DNA of 64,000 nucleotides, from the NCBI RefSeq assembly GCF_001553405.1, contig NZ_KQ960952.1, positions 35,141-99,140 of the forward strand, written 5' to 3'. The notes under the pieces are model-generated. The model had not been told where the DNA came from and made no database searches. It saw nothing but the letters and a program-made list of their open reading frames with translations. Shown in pieces: positions 6,817 to 38,623 of this stretch. Each line of letters opens with the position of its first letter. Positions within the stretch are counted from its first letter, which is position 1. The DNA comes from Megasphaera hutchinsoni (lineage in GTDB: Bacteria > Bacillota > Negativicutes > Veillonellales > Megasphaeraceae). Both the position numbers and the translations under genes were made by a program.

Positions 6817-6842
6817 GCAGGCGTTTGGAAATCCTTCGTAAA

Positions 6843-6985
6843 ATGGATAGCGCTGGTACCCTTTGGGTAGACGAGGAAGAGGTGTATCGAAAAGTCAGCG
6901 GATACCTCTCGGCAACTCCGGTCGTTAGGAAATGGCAAAACCTTTTGGCAACAAGAGGGACAAATCTGTTACGGGAGTGAGAATA
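6843..6985 (+). ncRNA. glmS ribozyme: glmS ribozyme (glucosamine-6-phosphate-activated)
   Basis: The 5' leader of glmS carries the conserved segments of the glmS self-cleaving riboswitch in the right order: the cleavage-site region AGCGC (cut expected just before G6850), then GTAGACGAGGA (6868-6877), GTGTATCGA (6882-6890), CAGCGGAT (6896-6903) paired with the ATACCTCT strand, and a 3' pseudoknot half with AATGGCAAAA and CAACAAGAGGGACAAA. It ends about 45 bases before the glmS start. When glucosamine-6-phosphate is abundant the RNA cleaves itself and the mRNA is degraded, giving feedback on glmS. An open frame through this region (6750-6980) is a by-product of the RNA. Confidence 0.9.
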
Positions 6986-28431: not shown

Positions 28432-28465
28432 CAAAAAAACCTCTCACATGAGAGGTTTTTTTTTG
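28432..28465. terminator. Terminator shared by rnpB and the converging receptor gene
   Basis: AAAAAAACCTCTCA and TGAGAGGTTTTTTTT form a 14-bp stem with a 2-base CA spacer at the apex. The A run on one side and T run on the other make it work in both directions, ending rnpB (plus) and the giant receptor gene (minus, stop at 28478). Confidence 0.9.
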
Positions 28466-28477
28466 TATATCTGATAT

Positions 28478-31400
28478 TTAAAATTTATACGTAAGTTGCA
28501 GGCGGGTGTAATTGCCGAGTTTGAATTGTTCCGGCCCGTATAACGTATCCCGCTTGCCCGTACTTTGGGCATCAAAGGTATAGTATGCTTCCAAGAGCAT
28601 ATTCTTTCTCGGCACATAGGCACCGCCGAGCGTGAAGCTCTTGACGCCGTCCAAATAGCGATCCGGCAAGCCTTCCGTACCGTTGCCGCCGAAGAAGGCG
28701 CCGTGTTCAAAATACTTGTAGTCGCCGAAGGCGCTCCAGGAGCCCGGCAGACGGTAATCGTGGCGACCGAAGTCAAAACGAATATCGAAGAATTTGGGAT
28801 TCTTGCCCAAGGTTCGACCATTCATGAGGAACCGAGACGTATAGATGGAGCTGTTGGGATCGGAAATACTCGGATCGATATATTGTTCACTCTTGGTGTT
28901 GCCGTTGAGATAACGTCCCAACTCGGAGCGGTTTATTCCGAAATCAAAGGAAATAGAGGAGAGGGAGTTTAATTGATACTTTGCACCGATGGCAAACACA
29001 TTGACCGCTTTGCGGAATACATGGGTATCGTTGCGATTATCGACAATTTTATGGCCCATTTTGTCATAGCCTTTGAGATCATAGTCGGCAATCTTGTATT
29101 GCTGTTCCTGATTGCCTACGGAGCGGAAGAACCACCCCGTAAGGCCGAGACGATTCGTCGCTTTACGACGATATTGGAAGAATATAGCCCGCTTAATCGG
29201 ATCAATCGTATCGCGGCGCAGTAGATTTCCCTTGGTCAATATAGGGCGACCTACTTCTTTTTCAAAGGCTTCACGGGGCAGCGGACTATTTCCGTCACCT
29301 TCGGTAAGGGCAGCCTGAATGCCTTTAAAGTAATTGGCAATTACAGAAGAATGTTCACCGTCAAAAAGACTATTATAGGAGGCTGTTTTTGTGAAATTTT
29401 CTTCGTATAATTTATCGACATAATGCATGTCATCGAGATCTTTTTCGGTCAACTTATTTATTTTTGCGATAGTCTGATTATTGGACTTGGCCTTACTTTT
29501 AGCGAATTCCTCTATCTTATTGTTATAGTAAGCAAGGAGCTGTTTTTTGTTTGTTTGATACCATTCTTGTAAGTAGGCTTTTCCGTCTGTGAGCATGCGT
29601 GTGTCATCTAAAGATACTTCATACTTCTTTCTCATGGCAATATCTTTGGCATCTGTGTTATTCGGCTTAGCATAGCCCGGAACGGTAAAGGTTTCCGTAT
29701 CTTCATAGTCTTGGCCGTCATCCTCATCATGGGTCGTATGGGTATACGATGCCGTTACTTCAGGGGTTTCTATAAAATATTTTTTAGTATGCAATTCTTT
29801 GCTGTACGTTCTTTTTGCCAAGGATTGTAAGCGTTGTACTACTTCGAGTCGGGTTGATAAATCATGCGGATATAATTCTTTTTCAGTCTGCTCTATTTTT
29901 GTCTTCAGTTCTTCTGCTTTGGCTAACTCTTTATTCATTTTTGCATCGTAGTCTATACATTCCGGATCCTTGCCAGCGTTGTTTAAACCTATTTTATCGG
30001 CACGTTCACTGTATTTTTTATACCACTCATTGGCTGAGTCCTCGGCCTGTTGTTTTTCGGCTTTTAATTGGTTTAAGGAAGAAGCTTCCGCATCTCGTAT
30101 GTTGGCAAGTTGCCGATAGTAATTGAGTTTGTTCCCATAGGTTTCTTTAGACTCTGTAAGTTTAAGCTGTCCGCCCTCATAGTATACACCCATTAATTCG
30201 TTAACTGTCGGTGTACGGTAAAATACATCGTATTCGGCATGCGTATAGGCGGAGTCCGTGACTCCCGTACTGTGGGAAAAGTCGCCGAACCCGACACGGA
30301 ATTGCGAATTTTTGTCGGTGTATAGTAGGCGGGCACCGTCGAAAGATTGATTAAACCAATACCCGGTGATGCCCATTTTTTCGTTCAGCCGTCCGAGGGA
30401 TACATCCCAAGCAGCCGTATGTTTGGTAATATCGGCTTTTTCAATCCGTACTTTGTTGATACTGCGGTTATCAATGGCGGTTTGGGCAGTATCCGGTTCT
30501 TTTAAGGCGGCAGCACTGCCGACAAGCGTTAAGTGGGTATGGTTATCTAATATTGCGTTGAGACCTAAGCGTATCCGCTGAGAGAAACCGTGGTCTTCTT
30601 TATTTTGCAGGGCTTTTACGGCACCTTCGTCAATGGAACTGGATTCGGTAACTCGTACGGCAGGACGGTTTTCCCCGAGGTGGCTGTCCATACGGGCACG
30701 ATAGTCGCCGAAGATGCGGATGGTAGTCGTTTGACTGTCATCAAAAGGACGATCTAAAAATCCGGTGAGAATTAAGGGAGAAATCTTTCCTTTTAATTCT
30801 TTCGGGATAAAATCTTCCAATTTTTGCTTCGCACTTAAGCCCAGTTTGAAGTTGGCACCGAAACGGAAGGTGCGAGCAGAAAAGGCACGGTCATCGTCAC
30901 GATGGTTAAAGATGTTGTCAATACCGAAGTAGGCGAGGGAGTCTTTATTTATTTTCTTTTGGATCATGATGTTCCACATGCCATAGGTTTTCCGTTGATA
31001 CATGTCTACGGTTTTTTTGTCCAGAATGTCATAATGTAATTTAGCTTTATCAAAAAGAGAATCACCTGTTTGTTTGGGATTTTTTATGCGTTCCGTCGTT
31101 AGCGTATTTTTATTGCCCGCCACGGAATTGCTGTCGAGCATGTTAATATAGTATTCTCCCCAGATACTGCCGCTCCAACCGGTTTTTTTATTTTCATAAT
31201 CCAAGCCTATATTGATTTTATGTTTGGGTTTATCTAATAATTGACGAGGCATGGTAGGATCGCTGGTGTTAATGGCATGAAGCCAGGTATAGCCGATACG
31301 ACCTTTGAGGGAAGTGTTAAATTGATGTTTGATTTCCAGTTCGGCACCGGTAATTTCGGCACGACCGATGTTTTTGAAACTGTAAATACGATCGGGTGCA

Positions 31401-33967
31401 TGGAAATATTTGAAAATACCGAGAATGGTCGATTCATCCGCTTCGGGATTAAAATCGATTAATTTGCCCGTATTATAGAGGGTTAAATAATTATCAATCT
31501 TGTTGTGGAACAGGGTCAGTTTCGTGTAGGTTTTCGCATTTTCTCCTTCAATGGAAACATCCACATTAAAGCCTTTTTCCGGTTTTAAGTCGGGATTTCC
31601 CTGCCAATACCAACCGAGACGAGCCGTACCGCTGCCGTCGGGATTGGCTTTTAACACATGCGGCCCGAACATTTCCCAACAATAGTATAATTCGCCCAAC
31701 CCGGGAGCCGTGTAGGAGGTGCCGACATTGGCTTTAAAGCGACGATGCACATTACCGCCGAGAGTATGCGTCACGCCCATATTAAAGGATACATTATTGC
31801 CGAAAAGGTTCGTGTGATCCAGACGGATAATGGGGTATAACATGGTATTTTCATTGAGTTGCCACGTATCTTGCAGGAAGACGTGCGCTTTATTGAGTGC
31901 CGCTTTGCCGACGAGTTGTTTATTTTGATTTTGATTATATTCTTCCCGGAAAATTTTACCGTTGGCTTTCATGAATGCCGAAGGGAAGTTCCACGTTGTG
32001 CCGTAGTACAAGAGGGCGTAATAATCTTTCAGATCATTTGTGCCGTAATTATCGGTGAGATCTTTAGCATTCCCGTAGGTTGTCCCATAATCTTTCATAG
32101 TGGGTTTATAATTTTCAGGAAACGCATTATGTTTTTTGACATAATTGAGGATATATGTTTCGTATTTTTTTTCGTTGCCGCCGAATTCCGTGTCTATAAT
32201 ATATTTATTATAGGCTTGGCGTGCTGTTTCCAGATTGTTTAACGTTTCATTAAAGGCTTTGTACCGATAGTAGGCGTCGGGATTACGGGAAAATAAAGAA
32301 CGCCGTTCTTTATCCGTATTTGTACCGTCACCGCCGGTGAGTGTCAGATGAGAAGAGGAGCCTTTACCGGCAAAAGAGGGATCTAAGTATTGTTTCCATT
32401 CTTCATAGGTAAACTGGGGTAAAAACTTACGTTCCGTATCATAGCCCCAGGGTTTGCTTTTATCGACAAAGGAATAGGCTTTATAGCGATCGGGATTTTT
32501 GGCGAGCATTTTTTTTGTTTCCGCTGCATTGCCGATGGGATCCCCCCAATTGTCCGCCACTCCCATATTCCGCTCCTCTTTGTCGGTCATTTCGGGTTTA
32601 TACTTTTCATCATAAGGGGGGTGTTCTTCCCCGTGATATCCATAATATTCGGATTCTTTATCCCAGATGAGAGAACCGTTTTTATCGATTTTTAAATTAT
32701 GCTTATGTATTTTAGAAGACGCTTCGCCATGATGTACATACAAACTTTTATCGTAGTCATATGGGTTGATCGAACGAAGGTAGGTTTCAGGCGCCATTTT
32801 CACACGACTTCCTTCGCCGTCTTCATGGGCATAGCCGAAGCCGTAGGACAGAAGATGCTTGTCGTTGACTTGGCGATTCATGGTAAATTCGCCCTTCCAT
32901 TCACCGTGATTGACTTCATCGACAGCATCCAAGGTGTTTTTTCCTTCGTAGGTGCTTTTGCCGTAATCACTAGTTAAAGTAATATCGGCTTCTTTGGTGC
33001 GGGTATAGTTGAATTCTGCTTTCCAATCACTTTTATCATTTTTTCCGGAATAAGCAATATTACCGGTATTTCGTTTTAGATCCCGTTTATAATGTACTTG
33101 TGGTTCTAAGTAGGAAGTGGTTCTTTTGACGAAACGTTCGAGCGATTCTTGATAATGATCAACCCGTGTATCTAACTTATGATTAGCATCTATGTCATAA
33201 TGGGTAGATAAGCCGATGTTGGCATTTGTACCATAAAAACGAAGGGAGTTTTTTTCATAGGCATTGGCGGCCGCTTCTTCTTGGGTGGCCAATACTTCCC
33301 GCCGCATACGATTTGAATAAATTGGTGCTAAATCACGTTTATTACCATATATGGCAAAACGGAAATTTCCAATTTTGCCTGAATCGGCACGTAAGTATAA
33401 ATTACTATGGGGGGTTCTTTGTGCGGATTCACGGTCACGACGACCTTCAACGTTGAATTTTATACCAGCTTTTTTATTGGGTTTTGAAGTGATAACGTTG
33501 ATGACACCGCCCATGGCACCGGAACCATATTTGGCACTAGCGGCACCTTGGATAATTTCAATGTGATCGACATTTTCCGTACCGATACGTTGTAATTCAT
33601 CACCGGCACCGCTGTATTTGCCAAGGCCACCAAGGGCTTCTTGACCGTCTACTAAGATGAGCGTATGACGAGGTTCAGCACCACGAATGGAGACGCCTAC
33701 ATTACCCATGCCGTCGACCGTACGGGTTACGCCGGTTTCCTGGAAGACGATATCTTCCGCTGATTTTGCTTGCTTTTTGGTAATTTCTTGTTTTGTAATA
33801 ATTGTTTTTTGTTGTGATTCTACTTTTGCCTCTTCTTCTGCTACGGTGGCTTTTACGAAGACATCTTTTGTGGATACGTTTGCTCCGTAACTAGGTAAGG
33901 GCATCGACATCCAAGCGACTATTGCACAGGATAGTAAGGCTGCATGACGATGAGTGATATAATTCAT
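28478..33967 (-). CDS. Giant outer-membrane protein: TonB-dependent receptor joined to a second porin-like barrel
   Basis: 1829 residues, about two to three times a normal receptor. Residues 1-29 are a signal peptide (SMPLPSYGA). A TonB-box-like DVFVKATV lies near 36, and a plug domain follows at about 50-165 (VSIRGAEPRHTLILVDGQ, KYGSGAMGGVINVIT). A beta-barrel then runs to about 1045, ending in the strand FRFGANFKLG. It contains an insertion of about 300 residues (about 390-690) rich in Tyr, Lys and Asp. After a linker (1046-1070) the chain enters a second barrel-like half, starting TIRIFGDYRARM and then SQRIRLGLNAILD, the style of OmpM-like porins of Negativicutes. This half carries an insertion (about 1280-1570) with coiled-coil character, and ends with the aromatic strand YTRLQLTYKF. 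Codons are GC-richer than the neighbours. The ligand is unknown. The second half being a separate barrel is inferred from strand pattern. Confidence 0.85.
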   Translation of the reverse strand: MNYITHRHAALLSCAIVAWMSMPLPSYGANVSTKDVFVKATVAEEEAKVESQQKTIITKQEITKKQAKSAEDIVFQETGVTRTVDGMGNVGVSIRGAEPRHTLILVDGQEALGGLGKYSGAGDELQRIGTENVDHIEIIQGAASAKYGSGAMGGVINVITSKPNKKAGIKFNVEGRRDRESAQRTPHSNLYLRADSGKIGNFRFAIYGNKRDLAPIYSNRMRREVLATQEEAAANAYEKNSLRFYGTNANIGLSTHYDIDANHKLDTRVDHYQESLERFVKRTTSYLEPQVHYKRDLKRNTGNIAYSGKNDKSDWKAEFNYTRTKEADITLTSDYGKSTYEGKNTLDAVDEVNHGEWKGEFTMNRQVNDKHLLSYGFGYAHEDGEGSRVKMAPETYLRSINPYDYDKSLYVHHGEASSKIHKHNLKIDKNGSLIWDKESEYYGYHGEEHPPYDEKYKPEMTDKEERNMGVADNWGDPIGNAAETKKMLAKNPDRYKAYSFVDKSKPWGYDTERKFLPQFTYEEWKQYLDPSFAGKGSSSHLTLTGGDGTNTDKERRSLFSRNPDAYYRYKAFNETLNNLETARQAYNKYIIDTEFGGNEKKYETYILNYVKKHNAFPENYKPTMKDYGTTYGNAKDLTDNYGTNDLKDYYALLYYGTTWNFPSAFMKANGKIFREEYNQNQNKQLVGKAALNKAHVFLQDTWQLNENTMLYPIIRLDHTNLFGNNVSFNMGVTHTLGGNVHRRFKANVGTSYTAPGLGELYYCWEMFGPHVLKANPDGSGTARLGWYWQGNPDLKPEKGFNVDVSIEGENAKTYTKLTLFHNKIDNYLTLYNTGKLIDFNPEADESTILGIFKYFHAPDRIYSFKNIGRAEITGAELEIKHQFNTSLKGRIGYTWLHAINTSDPTMPRQLLDKPKHKINIGLDYENKKTGWSGSIWGEYYINMLDSNSVAGNKNTLTTERIKNPKQTGDSLFDKAKLHYDILDKKTVDMYQRKTYGMWNIMIQKKINKDSLAYFGIDNIFNHRDDDRAFSARTFRFGANFKLGLSAKQKLEDFIPKELKGKISPLILTGFLDRPFDDSQTTTIRIFGDYRARMDSHLGENRPAVRVTESSSIDEGAVKALQNKEDHGFSQRIRLGLNAILDNHTHLTLVGSAAALKEPDTAQTAIDNRSINKVRIEKADITKHTAAWDVSLGRLNEKMGITGYWFNQSFDGARLLYTDKNSQFRVGFGDFSHSTGVTDSAYTHAEYDVFYRTPTVNELMGVYYEGGQLKLTESKETYGNKLNYYRQLANIRDAEASSLNQLKAEKQQAEDSANEWYKKYSERADKIGLNNAGKDPECIDYDAKMNKELAKAEELKTKIEQTEKELYPHDLSTRLEVVQRLQSLAKRTYSKELHTKKYFIETPEVTASYTHTTHDEDDGQDYEDTETFTVPGYAKPNNTDAKDIAMRKKYEVSLDDTRMLTDGKAYLQEWYQTNKKQLLAYYNNKIEEFAKSKAKSNNQTIAKINKLTEKDLDDMHYVDKLYEENFTKTASYNSLFDGEHSSVIANYFKGIQAALTEGDGNSPLPREAFEKEVGRPILTKGNLLRRDTIDPIKRAIFFQYRRKATNRLGLTGWFFRSVGNQEQQYKIADYDLKGYDKMGHKIVDNRNDTHVFRKAVNVFAIGAKYQLNSLSSISFDFGINRSELGRYLNGNTKSEQYIDPSISDPNSSIYTSRFLMNGRTLGKNPKFFDIRFDFGRHDYRLPGSWSAFGDYKYFEHGAFFGGNGTEGLPDRYLDGVKSFTLGGAYVPRKNMLLEAYYTFDAQSTGKRDTLYGPEQFKLGNYTRLQLTYKF

Positions 33968-34281
33968 AGACCATCTCTCCTTTTGTGATTGATTTTCCTT
34001 ATCAGGATAACAGAAAACATGTTATAAATCTACTCCAAACGGTAAAAAAACAATCCAAATGGACATTTTTTTTTCCTTTTTGTGCGGGATGATAGGAGAA
34101 AATATCGCCTTATATAAGTGTTTTTTGTATATAATTATCTGTATCATAATAGAGATAGACATAAGTAGAAAAATATATTTTATGGTATTAAAGATAAGCT
34201 TATTTATTACAGTTTGGTTATATCCATTTTCCCCTATGACAAAGCATAGTATAATAAAGAATACACGAAGGAGGAAAAAAT
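33968..34281. other. Divergent intergenic region between the giant receptor and the TonB/B12 block
   Basis: 314 AT-rich bases. On the minus side, AAAGGAGAG precedes the receptor ATG, and an exact palindrome TTATCAGGATAA-like element (TTATC-AG-GATAA) lies at 33999-34010, a possible operator. On the plus side, a TATAAT at 34250-34255 lies just before the ThiF-like gene with no good -35. No B12 riboswitch box or other leader RNA is visible. Confidence 0.5.
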
Positions 34282-35049: not shown

Positions 35050-35658
35050 ATGGAATGGATAAAGGTTATTCAGCCATGGTTTATGGCTGGTGGTACAGTA
35101 ATGTATGTATTGTGTGTATGTTCATTGGTGGTCATTTTTTTGGGGTGTGAACGATATCTTGTATTTGCACGGTTGGATTCGGGACATATGTTTGCGGTAC
35201 GATTTTATCATGTGATGATGCGTCGGCAATATAAAGAGGCAGTAGATATGGCACGAGAAACTCGAGGGGCATTGGCCCATATGATTATGGTAGCGGCACA
35301 AATGGAAACAGTAGCACAACGTCAAGCATATATTGAGTTGGAAACGGGACGCGTGCTTACTCTTTTGCAAGAGCGCTTATATTACATAAGTTTGATAGTT
35401 ACGGCAGCCCCCTTATTGGGATTGTTAGGTACGATTCATGGGATGATGTATTCTTTTCAATTGCTTTCAACGGGTGGAGAACACGCATTAGTTGTTACGG
35501 GGGGAGTAAGCGAAGCGTTGGTGGCAACGTCCTTTGGCATTATTATTGCGTTAGTAGCGATGGTTATGCATACGTATTTTCGACAACGTCATGATCGTAT
35601 TATCGGGGATATAGAACTTTGTTTTTCTGCTTGGGAATGGTATCAAAAGGAAGGATAG
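35050..35658 (+). CDS. exbB: ExbB-type proton channel subunit
   Basis: 202 residues of the MotA/TolQ/ExbB family. One membrane segment near residues 15-33 is followed by a cytoplasmic stretch, and two further helices (about 112-135 and 155-180) have the family pattern APLLGLLGTIHGMMYSF and GVSEALVATSFGIIIALVAM. With ExbD it uses the proton gradient to drive TonB. The genes exbB-exbD-tonB are contiguous and followed by a receptor and an ABC importer, so this set probably powers that receptor. Confidence 0.93.
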   Translation: MEWIKVIQPWFMAGGTVMYVLCVCSLVVIFLGCERYLVFARLDSGHMFAVRFYHVMMRRQYKEAVDMARETRGALAHMIMVAAQMETVAQRQAYIELETGRVLTLLQERLYYISLIVTAAPLLGLLGTIHGMMYSFQLLSTGGEHALVVTGGVSEALVATSFGIIIALVAMVMHTYFRQRHDRIIGDIELCFSAWEWYQKEG

Positions 35659-35662
35659 GTCG

Positions 35663-36058
35663 ATGCGATTACGAAAGAAGATGGTTGAAAAACCGGAAGT
35701 TATGATTATTCCGATGATTGATATTATGTTTTTTTTAGTGGTGTTTTTTATGCTTGCTGTTGTAGGTACTTCAGCGTTACATGTTGTTCCCGTACAATTG
35801 CCCGTCATATCACAGGGACAATCTGCAAAGGATGAGGTATATGTTATTACGTTGCGTCAAAATCACCGGTTATATGTGGAGGATCAGCCTATTACATTGC
35901 GTGATTTGTCAAAGAAGTTGTCTGAACATCCGAAAGTTTCGATTGTATTACGGGCGAATAAGGATGTATCGTATAGTGAAGTTATGCAGGTCTTAGATAG
36001 ATTGCGGCAAGAAGGTATTTCGCGTGTTGGTTTGGGCGTGGAGCAAAGACAAAGATGA
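35663..36058 (+). CDS. exbD: ExbD-type energy transducer subunit
   Basis: 131 residues. A short cytoplasmic N-terminus precedes the single membrane helix IPMIDIMFFLVVFFMLA, which carries the conserved proton-relay Asp. A periplasmic domain follows, with VVLRANKDVSYSEVMQVLDRLRQEGI typical of ExbD/TolR. It overlaps tonB by 4 bases (ATGA). Confidence 0.93.
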   Translation: MRLRKKMVEKPEVMIIPMIDIMFFLVVFFMLAVVGTSALHVVPVQLPVISQGQSAKDEVYVITLRQNHRLYVEDQPITLRDLSKKLSEHPKVSIVLRANKDVSYSEVMQVLDRLRQEGISRVGLGVEQRQR

Positions 36059-36714
36059 AACGACAAGATTTTTTTATTTCCTTGGGCATAACTATGGTAG
36101 TGCATTTGTTGCTTTTGGGTATATGGGTATATCAAGCGGGGGATTTTCCTAAGTCGGATAAGTCCGCTATCGTTTCTGAGATGACTGCCTATGTAGCGGA
36201 TGTTCCTACTCTTGTTGATGGTGGTGAGAAGGGAACTATGCGTTCAGATCGTGCAGAATTAACTGAAAATAAAGGGCGTCCAACATCAACAGCAACTGTT
36301 GTTAAGACGGGTACTATGGTGATAGAAAAAAAGTTTGGGAAAACGGTGGCAGAGGAGAGCGTTGTCAGCTCTTTTGGACAGGGAGGCGTTACGGCGACAG
36401 GTAACGAGATGAAAAAAAATGGAATAGAAGGGGCTGTTATAGCACCACAATTGGTATATGCACCTGCTGCTAGGTATCCTGAAAAAAGTAAACAGAAAGG
36501 CATTACGGGCGTAGTCTGCGTTCATTTTATTGTTACGGATAGAGGGCATGTAGTAGGTGATTCGATTCGATTGTTATCCTCATCGGGAAGTCATGAGTTA
36601 GATGAGAGTGCGATTGATGCGGTACGGAAATATCAATTTATAGCAGCTAAAAATGAAGCTGGTAATGCGATGTCTTGTGGGGTAACTATTTCGGTTGGCT
36701 TTAGAAAAAAATAA
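36055..36714 (+). CDS. tonB: TonB energy-coupling protein
   Basis: 219 residues. An N-terminal signal anchor (about 9-27, LGITMVVHLLLLGIWVY) is followed by a periplasmic spacer and a C-terminal TonB domain (about 130-219) with YPEKSKQKGITGVVCVHFIV, ESAIDAVRKYQF and the final VGFRKK. The spacer is Ser/Thr/Gly-rich and lacks the usual Pro-rich repeats. Transmits energy from ExbBD to outer-membrane receptors, presumably including the next gene and perhaps the giant receptor. Confidence 0.92.
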   Translation: MKRQDFFISLGITMVVHLLLLGIWVYQAGDFPKSDKSAIVSEMTAYVADVPTLVDGGEKGTMRSDRAELTENKGRPTSTATVVKTGTMVIEKKFGKTVAEESVVSSFGQGGVTATGNEMKKNGIEGAVIAPQLVYAPAARYPEKSKQKGITGVVCVHFIVTDRGHVVGDSIRLLSSSGSHELDESAIDAVRKYQFIAAKNEAGNAMSCGVTISVGFRKK

Positions 36715-36733
36715 GTGGAAATGAGGTTTTGTG

Positions 36734-38623
36734 ATGAAAGAAATATATGCACTGGGGGTAATCGTTGCTTTAACTACTGTTTGTACAGTGGCGCAGGGGC
36801 AAGGTGAATTTGAATTACCGGAACAGACAACGTGGATGGAGATGAATCGTCATTTTTACGAAGAGAAAGAACAACCATTTTGTAAGACCATTATTACGGC
36901 AGAACAAATACAACAGCGACATTATACAACGGTTAAAGAAGCGGTTGCAGCTATTCCCGGTGTAACCGTATCGGAGCAGATACCTGGTGGTGATACGTAT
37001 GCTCGTTTGCAAGGTACGGATCGAGTTGTCGTGCTCGTTGATGGACAAAATATAGGTAATACAGGGCAGGCTGCTTATGGAAGAGGAACCGTTGATTTAT
37101 CTTTAGTGCCGGATATCGCTCAAATTGAACGGATTGAAGTTATGCAAGGGGTGTTATCCGTACGTTATGGAAGTGGTGCTGTGGGTGGTGTAATTCATAT
37201 TATTACGAAAAAAGGGGCACACCGAGAACAGCGGTTAGATGTATTTGGTGGTACGGGCGATCAATGGGGAAGGCGGATTGCCTTTGGTGGCGAGCATCAA
37301 GCACTATCGTGGTATGTGACGGGGAGTCGCACACAACGGTCGTATTATCCGATTCGTTCGCATGGAATATATGCAACGGAACGGGTATATAGTGATTATA
37401 TGAAAGATAATATAGCTGTGCGGATACGACGATGCCTAACGGATCAAACTTCATTAGATATGCAAGCTCAATATACTCAGTTTGATGGACATGGTACGAC
37501 GGTCATCCGTACGAAACAACCGTATACGTTTATGCATAAAGAACGCAAACGGAAACAATATCGTGTACAACTCGCTTATCAGTATGATACATATACGATG
37601 AATCCAGGTTATGTACAATATTATCAGCAAGTGAATAAGGCGGCAGGAGAAACGCAATTTTCTACGCGTACACAAGGTGTTAGGGGGGAAAAGGTTTTTT
37701 GTATTACGGCACAGCATAAGATTACCTTAGGTGGTGAATGGCGCTGGGAAGAAGCAATACATGAAACGGCAAATATTCATCATAAACGTCGTACACAACG
37801 AGCTTTTTTTTTGGAAGATGAGTGGAAACAAGGAAAGTGGACTTTGCTGACCGGGGTGCGAGGAGATGATAATTCTTATTTTGGTTTTTATCCTACCGCA
37901 CGAGTTAGTGTATTATATGATACGCAAAAAAGATTTAGTGGGTATGCTTCGTGGGGACGTGTTTTTTCTGTTCCTAAAATGAATGATTTGTTTTATACGA
38001 AAAAGGTACGTCGACAAATACAGCAACATGGAAAAACAAAATGGGTTGAAAAATGGGTAAAAGGGGATCCTTCCTTGCGTCCTGAAAATGGGTATACCGC
38101 AACGTTGGGTATGACGTACCGTTTATCGCCTCAGGCTTCATTACAGGCACAAGTATTTCGTAATGAAATACATCAAGCCATTCGCTGGAACCATGGTTTA
38201 GGTCGGGTGGAACAATTGGATACGGAAGCCGTTACGGGTGGAACTCTATCCTTTTTCCGTCAAGTAAACTCACATTGGCAGTATTCGTTGGGGTATGGAT
38301 ATACGGATTATCGCATATATACGAAAAAGGGGATCGATCATAAACGCACGTATAATCGGCCGCATGGGTATGTAGGGGAAATAACTTATACGGCAGGAAA
38401 ATGGAGAGGCAACCTTTCTTTTGATGGCGGTGCAGGGCGAGATACGACGGATTATAATACGGGGGCCTTTGTACAATGGAATGGAAATGTTCAATATGCA
38501 GCGAATGATTCACTGTTATGGTATGTAGAAGTTCGCAACATAAACAATGCAGGGTATGATTTATTTCATCAATATCCCGTTGCGGGCAGACAATGGTTAG
38601 TGGGTATGCATTGTTCGTGGTAA
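36734..38623 (+). CDS. TonB-dependent receptor, probably for corrinoids (BtuB-like)
   Basis: 629 residues from ATG 36734. A signal peptide covers about residues 1-22. The plug domain lies at about 48-160, with TVKEAVAAIPGVTVSEQ, ARLQGTDRVVVLVDGQ and RYGSGAVGGVIHIITKKG. The rest is a 22-strand-type barrel with SLRPENGYTATLGMTYR and a C-terminal aromatic end (MHCSW). The size is close to BtuB. Substrate assignment to cobalamin or cobinamide rests on the location: tonB upstream, a BtuFCD-type importer and eight cbi genes downstream in one run. Siderophore or cobalt-chelate uptake is possible. Confidence 0.85.
   Translation: MKEIYALGVIVALTTVCTVAQGQGEFELPEQTTWMEMNRHFYEEKEQPFCKTIITAEQIQQRHYTTVKEAVAAIPGVTVSEQIPGGDTYARLQGTDRVVVLVDGQNIGNTGQAAYGRGTVDLSLVPDIAQIERIEVMQGVLSVRYGSGAVGGVIHIITKKGAHREQRLDVFGGTGDQWGRRIAFGGEHQALSWYVTGSRTQRSYYPIRSHGIYATERVYSDYMKDNIAVRIRRCLTDQTSLDMQAQYTQFDGHGTTVIRTKQPYTFMHKERKRKQYRVQLAYQYDTYTMNPGYVQYYQQVNKAAGETQFSTRTQGVRGEKVFCITAQHKITLGGEWRWEEAIHETANIHHKRRTQRAFFLEDEWKQGKWTLLTGVRGDDNSYFGFYPTARVSVLYDTQKRFSGYASWGRVFSVPKMNDLFYTKKVRRQIQQHGKTKWVEKWVKGDPSLRPENGYTATLGMTYRLSPQASLQAQVFRNEIHQAIRWNHGLGRVEQLDTEAVTGGTLSFFRQVNSHWQYSLGYGYTDYRIYTKKGIDHKRTYNRPHGYVGEITYTAGKWRGNLSFDGGAGRDTTDYNTGAFVQWNGNVQYAANDSLLWYVEVRNINNAGYDLFHQYPVAGRQWLVGMHCSW

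Follow-up and report, generated by a model that had tools for sequence, protein, structure and literature searches.

A predicted two-barrel outer membrane protein of Negativicutes that joins a TonB-dependent receptor to an OmpM-type porin

A single gene of Megasphaera hutchinsoni is predicted to encode one protein with two complete outer membrane barrels, and it represents a real and probably overlooked family found across the Negativicutes. The chain of 1829 amino acids is predicted to be a two-barrel outer membrane protein, with a plugged TonB-type receptor first and then a 16-stranded porin domain of OmpM type; this prediction comes from models of the two halves made separately and not from a model of the single chain. 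Computation shows that the two barrels are complete, that their arrangement is conserved and that the two halves evolved together. The gene lies in the window, by which we mean the whole stretch of 64,000 nucleotides that was analysed. The features of the gene and its surroundings are as follows.

28478..33967, minus strand: two-barrel gene, TonB-dependent receptor plus OmpM-type porin, 1829 amino acids (open frame; three full-length paralogs; orthologs in 42 of 380 Negativicutes genomes)
33988..34003, minus strand: weak Fur-box-like site GATAAGGAAAATCAAT, 13 of 16 positions matching (score reached by 12 of 200 shuffles)
33975..33981, minus strand: ribosome-binding site AGGAGAG of the fused gene, rated good
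33881..33967, minus strand: signal peptide, about residues 1-29 (by eye and paralog alignment, no prediction program)
33503..33814, minus strand: Plug domain, residues 52-155 (Pfam PF07715, E 7e-19, above cut-off)
30842..33502, minus strand: first barrel, residues 156-1042 (Pfam PF00593 to the last profile position; BtuB alignment)
31922..32641, minus strand: long extracellular loop insert of the first barrel, residues 443-682 (alignment lengths; low model confidence)
30722..30841, minus strand: linker between the barrels, residues 1043-1082, 40 residues (34-69 in relatives; ends in a partly conserved FIxRPFD motif)
28481..30721, minus strand: second barrel, OmpM-type, residues 1083-1829, 16 strands counted (AlphaFold2, OmpM1 fold match, hhalign)
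30347..30382, minus strand: loop 3 of the porin (about EKMGITGYWFNQ), conserved, with invariant columns (ortholog alignment)
29198..30277, minus strand: loop 4 of the porin with a large, mostly helical insert, residues 1231-1590 (model; alignment lengths)
28646..28708, minus strand: loop 7 of the porin (EHGAFFGGNGTEGLPDRYLDG), nearly invariant (ortholog alignment)
28433..28462, no strand: symmetric terminator at the end of the fused gene, common to the RNase P RNA gene on the opposite strand
35050..36714, plus strand: exbB, exbD and tonB, neighbours that are not part of the protein (ExbD identified by size, order and sequence)

The reading frame is open from the ATG at 33967 to the stop codon ending at 28478 and contains no ambiguous bases. 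The source genome (1.57 Mb, 99.3% complete) has three full-length paralogs on other contigs, of 1733, 1628 and 1582 amino acids. A single signal peptide had been proposed from sequence alone, and this was agreed by eye only. It is followed at about residues 33-41 by a TonB-box-like stretch, TKDVFVKAT, which is similar in the paralogs; TonB dependence has not been shown experimentally. No riboswitch lies near the fused gene. The window also holds a glmS ribozyme at 6838-6982 (Rfam, 76.9 bits).

Residues from about 30 to 1042 are predicted to form a complete TonB-dependent receptor with plug and barrel, from which no part is missing that the second half would have to supply. The TonB_dep_Rec family (PF00593) matches at residues 523-1019 over profile positions 23-436 of 436, and the motif FRFGANFKLG lies at residues 1034-1043. 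The AlphaFold2 model of this half covers residues 27-1062 with a mean pLDDT of 63.7, low mainly in the extracellular loops. In a fold comparison 532 of the 551 residues of BtuB align with the model (Z about 35), CirA and others align too, and the last strand of the model, at residue 1042, meets the C-terminal residue of BtuB. The criterion of a complete 22-stranded receptor barrel is met both by the profile, which is matched to position 436 of 436, and by the BtuB alignment, which runs to the last residue. The loop insert of the first barrel is 240 amino acids long here, compared with 85-133 in relatives. One of the best-scoring sequence profiles for the fused protein is TIGR01786, which describes receptors of hemoglobin/transferrin type.

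The second half is less easily recognised in sequence searches. No Pfam family matches it when it is searched alone (residues 1046-1829), and a sequence search of solved structures with the profile of the second half returned no porin; only the fold search did so. The Porin_5 family (PF16930) does match 13 of 16 orthologous second halves, with a best E-value of 6.8e-8. The AlphaFold2 model of the second half is a barrel with a mean pLDDT of 80, in which the turns of one side are short and the loops of the opposite side long. Its alignment with Veillonella parvula OmpM1 (8bys residues 115-420) covers 287 residues with a Z of 27.6 and an rmsd of 2.7, and runs end to end over residues 36-784 of the modelled segment. 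OmpF-type porins score well below this, with a Z of about 21. Comparison of profiles by hhalign against OmpMs that carry an SLH domain gave 99.7% and 99.5%, and the C-terminal 130 residues are homologous. Pfam and profile searches found no SLH domain in the fused protein. We do not class it as an OmpM because it lacks the SLH domain and coiled-coil stalk and because a receptor precedes the barrel.

The constriction of OmpM1 is formed by loops 3 and 7 (PMC10628300), and in the family alignment these two loops rank among the most conserved stretches of the porin half. The extracellular loop 4, between strands 7 and 8, carries an insert of around 300 residues consisting mainly of long helices, most of which are modelled at a pLDDT of about 80-95. 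The stretch between these two strands is 257-421 amino acids long in every aligned relative, and a helical insert is found at the same place in some SLH-OmpMs, for example in genome L086. Outward-facing conservation of the porin half was 0.76 versus 0.72, with no clear trimer interface.

On the models of the separate halves, the 1829-residue protein meets the criterion for a multi-barrel protein, that is, at least two complete barrel domains in one chain. The first-pass annotation had proposed that a TonB-dependent receptor and a second outer membrane barrel are joined in one chain, that the first barrel ends at about residue 1045 with FRFGANFKLG and that the second half is OmpM-like. The first proposal is borne out by the structure predictions, profiles and trees, the second by the position of the motif given above, and the third by the OmpM1 and hhalign scores.

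The family is found in 42 of the 380 Negativicutes genomes searched (41 if one fragment of 103 amino acids is left out), which represent seven genera in five families. The relatives are mostly single frames of around 1450-1750 amino acids and often occur as tandem pairs; on the complete chromosome of V. parvula SKV38 the tandem fused genes encode proteins of 1694 and 1690 amino acids. In 199 genomes spread over the phylum no match was found outside the source genome; most of the phylum is without an outer membrane. In a tree of porins, all 19 fused halves group in a clade of their own, to the exclusion of 12 OmpMs (100/100), and in the receptor tree the fused receptor halves also form one clade (SH-aLRT 81). 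In both trees the fused gene of the window groups with its ortholog, the first of the two tandem genes of Veillonella, and the paralog on contig C16 falls into the group of the second. The distance matrices of the two halves are correlated (Mantel r 0.92, reached in 0 of 2000 permutations). These trees and correlated distances are consistent with one fusion followed by joint inheritance and duplication.

Two short frames, of 1104 and 1133 amino acids, were considered as compact versions of the protein and rejected; they are frameshift-broken copies, which left no full-length chain of fewer than 1200 amino acids. Copies of the fused gene in three genomes, L088 (of Centipeda periodontii type), L089 and L080, are frameshifted or lack a long frame, and sequencing error, decay and phase variation cannot be distinguished as the cause.

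The genes around the family point towards heme. In V. parvula the tandem fused genes are directly followed by genes for ExbB, ExbD, TonB, a BilS-like flavodoxin and HutW, the last of which scores above the curated cut-off of TIGR04107. HutW (HmuW), an anaerobilin synthase, is a radical-SAM enzyme of anaerobic heme degradation. In genome L091, which belongs to another family, the fused genes occur with ExbB, ExbD, a flavodoxin, HutW and a relative of IsdE-like heme-binding proteins. HutW lies about 2-3 kb from the fused gene in 15 genomes, which belong to four genera. Of the 42 genomes that carry the fusion, 41 contain HutW, as against 69 of the 338 that lack it. These genome counts are inflated by shared ancestry; counted by genus, HutW is present in seven of seven with the fusion and in 40 of 102 overall. 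Similar heme operons with a TonB-dependent receptor, HmuR, have independently been drawn for Veillonella dispar and V. atypica, without mention of a porin or a fusion (PMC10404700). Heme or hemoprotein uptake is therefore the best-supported role of the family, inferred from gene neighbourhood; there are no binding, import or growth data, and no heme-binding residue was identified in the receptor.

In the source genome the exbB-exbD-tonB-flavodoxin-HutW operon sits on another contig, away from the fused gene. The nearest operon to the fused gene of the window resembles one for vitamin B12 uptake and cobalamin synthesis: 315 bp away lies a divergent thiF, and after it come exbBD-tonB, the gene for a BtuB-like receptor, an ABC importer and cbiD. 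The ligand of the window copy is less sure than that of its orthologs because the heme operon is on another contig and a B12-type operon is adjacent. No data on the expression of this copy were found. The BtuB-like receptor of this divergent exbBD-tonB/ABC importer/cbi run (window 36731-38623) is 630 amino acids long and has Plug as its sole Pfam match.

The explanation that we prefer, with only a modest lean in its favour, is that of a heme receptor joined to a porin that provides both a loop-4 co-receptor or lid and a pore. With ExbBD-TonB as its source of power, the receptor would take up heme or strip it from hemoproteins. The porin domain would hold the large helical insert of loop 4 beside the mouth of the receptor as a membrane-anchored co-receptor or lid, and would keep an OmpM-like pore for small molecules next to it; if the porin is trimeric like OmpM1, it may gather three receptors. 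In the cell HutW would open the heme, releasing its iron without oxygen. The role of the porin half, whether co-receptor platform, pore or trimer scaffold, is an inference. The first-pass annotation had suggested that one barrel captures a ligand and the other passes a product or balances flow; gene neighbours point to heme or hemoprotein for the first part, and the second part is without evidence. In a bolder reading, which we think unlikely, a porin trimer is ringed by three receptors with the loop-4 arms as built-in co-receptors, so that a single gene provides an island of heme or hemoprotein uptake with its own diffusion pores. If true, such an assembly of transporters would be of a new kind in the outer membrane, and Veillonella would have a source of porin activity that has gone unrecognised.

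Several other explanations can be weighed against the preferred one. The porin half may be mainly a scaffold, which trimerises and clusters three receptors or simply places the loop-4 insert as a surface co-receptor, with transport through the pore irrelevant. The long loop-4 region of every aligned relative, the confidence with which most of its helices are modelled and the trimeric state of OmpM1 (PMC10628300) speak for this; the conservation of loops 3 and 7, the constriction of OmpM1, suggests a working pore, however, and no conserved trimer face was found. We hold the scaffold to be rather less likely than not. It is also possible that the ligand is not heme but a cobamide, another tetrapyrrole or an iron chelate, in which case the linkage to HutW would reflect general scavenging of iron and tetrapyrroles. 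BtuB is the nearest structure to the receptor half, the B12-type genes lie 315 bp from the fused gene, and the presence of four paralogs in the genome hints at several ligands. Against this, the ligand can hardly be read from how receptors rank by structure, TIGR01786 is among the best profiles, and heme-degradation genes are recurrent neighbours in four genera. We hold this reading, too, to be less likely than not.

The remaining explanations concern whether there are two barrels in one chain at all. Giant barrels such as SlpA exist (PMC10628300), but a single very large barrel for the whole chain is very unlikely and can be rejected as far as prediction can do so: for each half there is a closed and complete reference barrel that it matches from one end to the other, last strand included, and the linker is variable in length, at 34-69 residues. 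A soluble second half is rejected by the barrel model that aligns end to end with OmpM1. An assembly or sequencing error that joined two genes is all but excluded by the three paralogs in the same genome and by dozens of orthologs, including those on the complete SKV38 chromosome; nothing supports such an error for the fused gene, and the few relatives that are split by frameshifts represent the opposite error. These three outcomes had been named beforehand as those that would refute the two-barrel proposal, and none was borne out.

Outer membrane proteins with several barrels per chain already form a recognised class (Solan et al. 2021, as cited in other papers; GfcD and YjbH in PMC11494523 and PMC9603273), with which the fused protein shares the presence of two complete barrels in one polypeptide. 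GfcD pairs barrels of 12 and 13 strands with a periplasmic domain in polysaccharide export (PMC11494523), whereas here a plugged, energy-driven receptor is paired with a porin. The literature searched, a partial set without Solan et al. 2021 itself, contained no description of a receptor-porin fusion. The earlier claim that no example had been described is thus at most true for this combination, two-barrel chains such as GfcD and YjbH having been described already.

With TonB-dependent receptors (BtuB, CirA, FepA and ChuA/HmuR) the protein shares the plug, a complete barrel, ExbB-ExbD-TonB nearby and, in its relatives, heme-type neighbours. Receptors normally end at their last strand, whereas the fused chain continues through a linker into a second barrel. 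With OmpM (V. parvula OmpM1, PDB 8bys/8bym/8byt), its best structural match, it shares the 16-stranded porin barrel and the conserved loops 3 and 7. It differs from OmpM in having a whole receptor in place of the SLH domain and the periplasmic coiled-coil stalk, and the fused porin half has a very large loop 4 and a clade of its own. A loose parallel comes from Escherichia coli, where a 22-stranded receptor is found beside a 16-stranded porin in BtuB-OmpF (the colicin E9 translocon and lipid-mediated clusters, PMC9629720); those are separate proteins held by lipid and ligand, whereas in the fused protein the connection is covalent.

As a rule, porins are regarded as one machine and energy-driven receptors as another. 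In this family the two make up one conserved chain, found in anaerobes associated with humans, Veillonella, Megasphaera and Selenomonas among them, and the BAM machinery has to fold both barrels of this single polypeptide. A study of the OmpMs in V. parvula SKV38 listed, besides four OmpMs, two further genes for putative porins, and concluded that there are probably no porins other than the OmpMs (PMC10628300). The two OmpM-type barrels within the SKV38 receptors are absent from the genes named in the relevant passages of that paper. SKV38 encodes two more OmpM-type barrels, inside receptors, which bears on the conclusion about its only porins. It is also a genetically accessible case in which to ask why a cell ties a TonB receptor to a pore.

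The source genome contains another arrangement of the same two kinds of protein. On contig C5 (L112:4017-8110) the end of an SLH-OmpM gene and the start of a gene for a single-barrel TonB-dependent receptor overlap by one base. From this gene layout it can be inferred that the same organism has a second, independent pairing of OmpM porin and receptor, one without fusion. About 130 bases upstream of the SLH-OmpM gene (L112:4066-4195) are 96% identical to the leader of another single-barrel receptor gene (contig C17:108461-108589), and weaker copies of this leader occur on two other contigs; we read it as a duplicated promoter or leader. Upstream of the OmpM-receptor operon (L112:634-3513) there are two tandem unidentified proteins of 466-475 amino acids, which start with NDLxTYRYxxxDGT and have a barrel-like C-terminal part.
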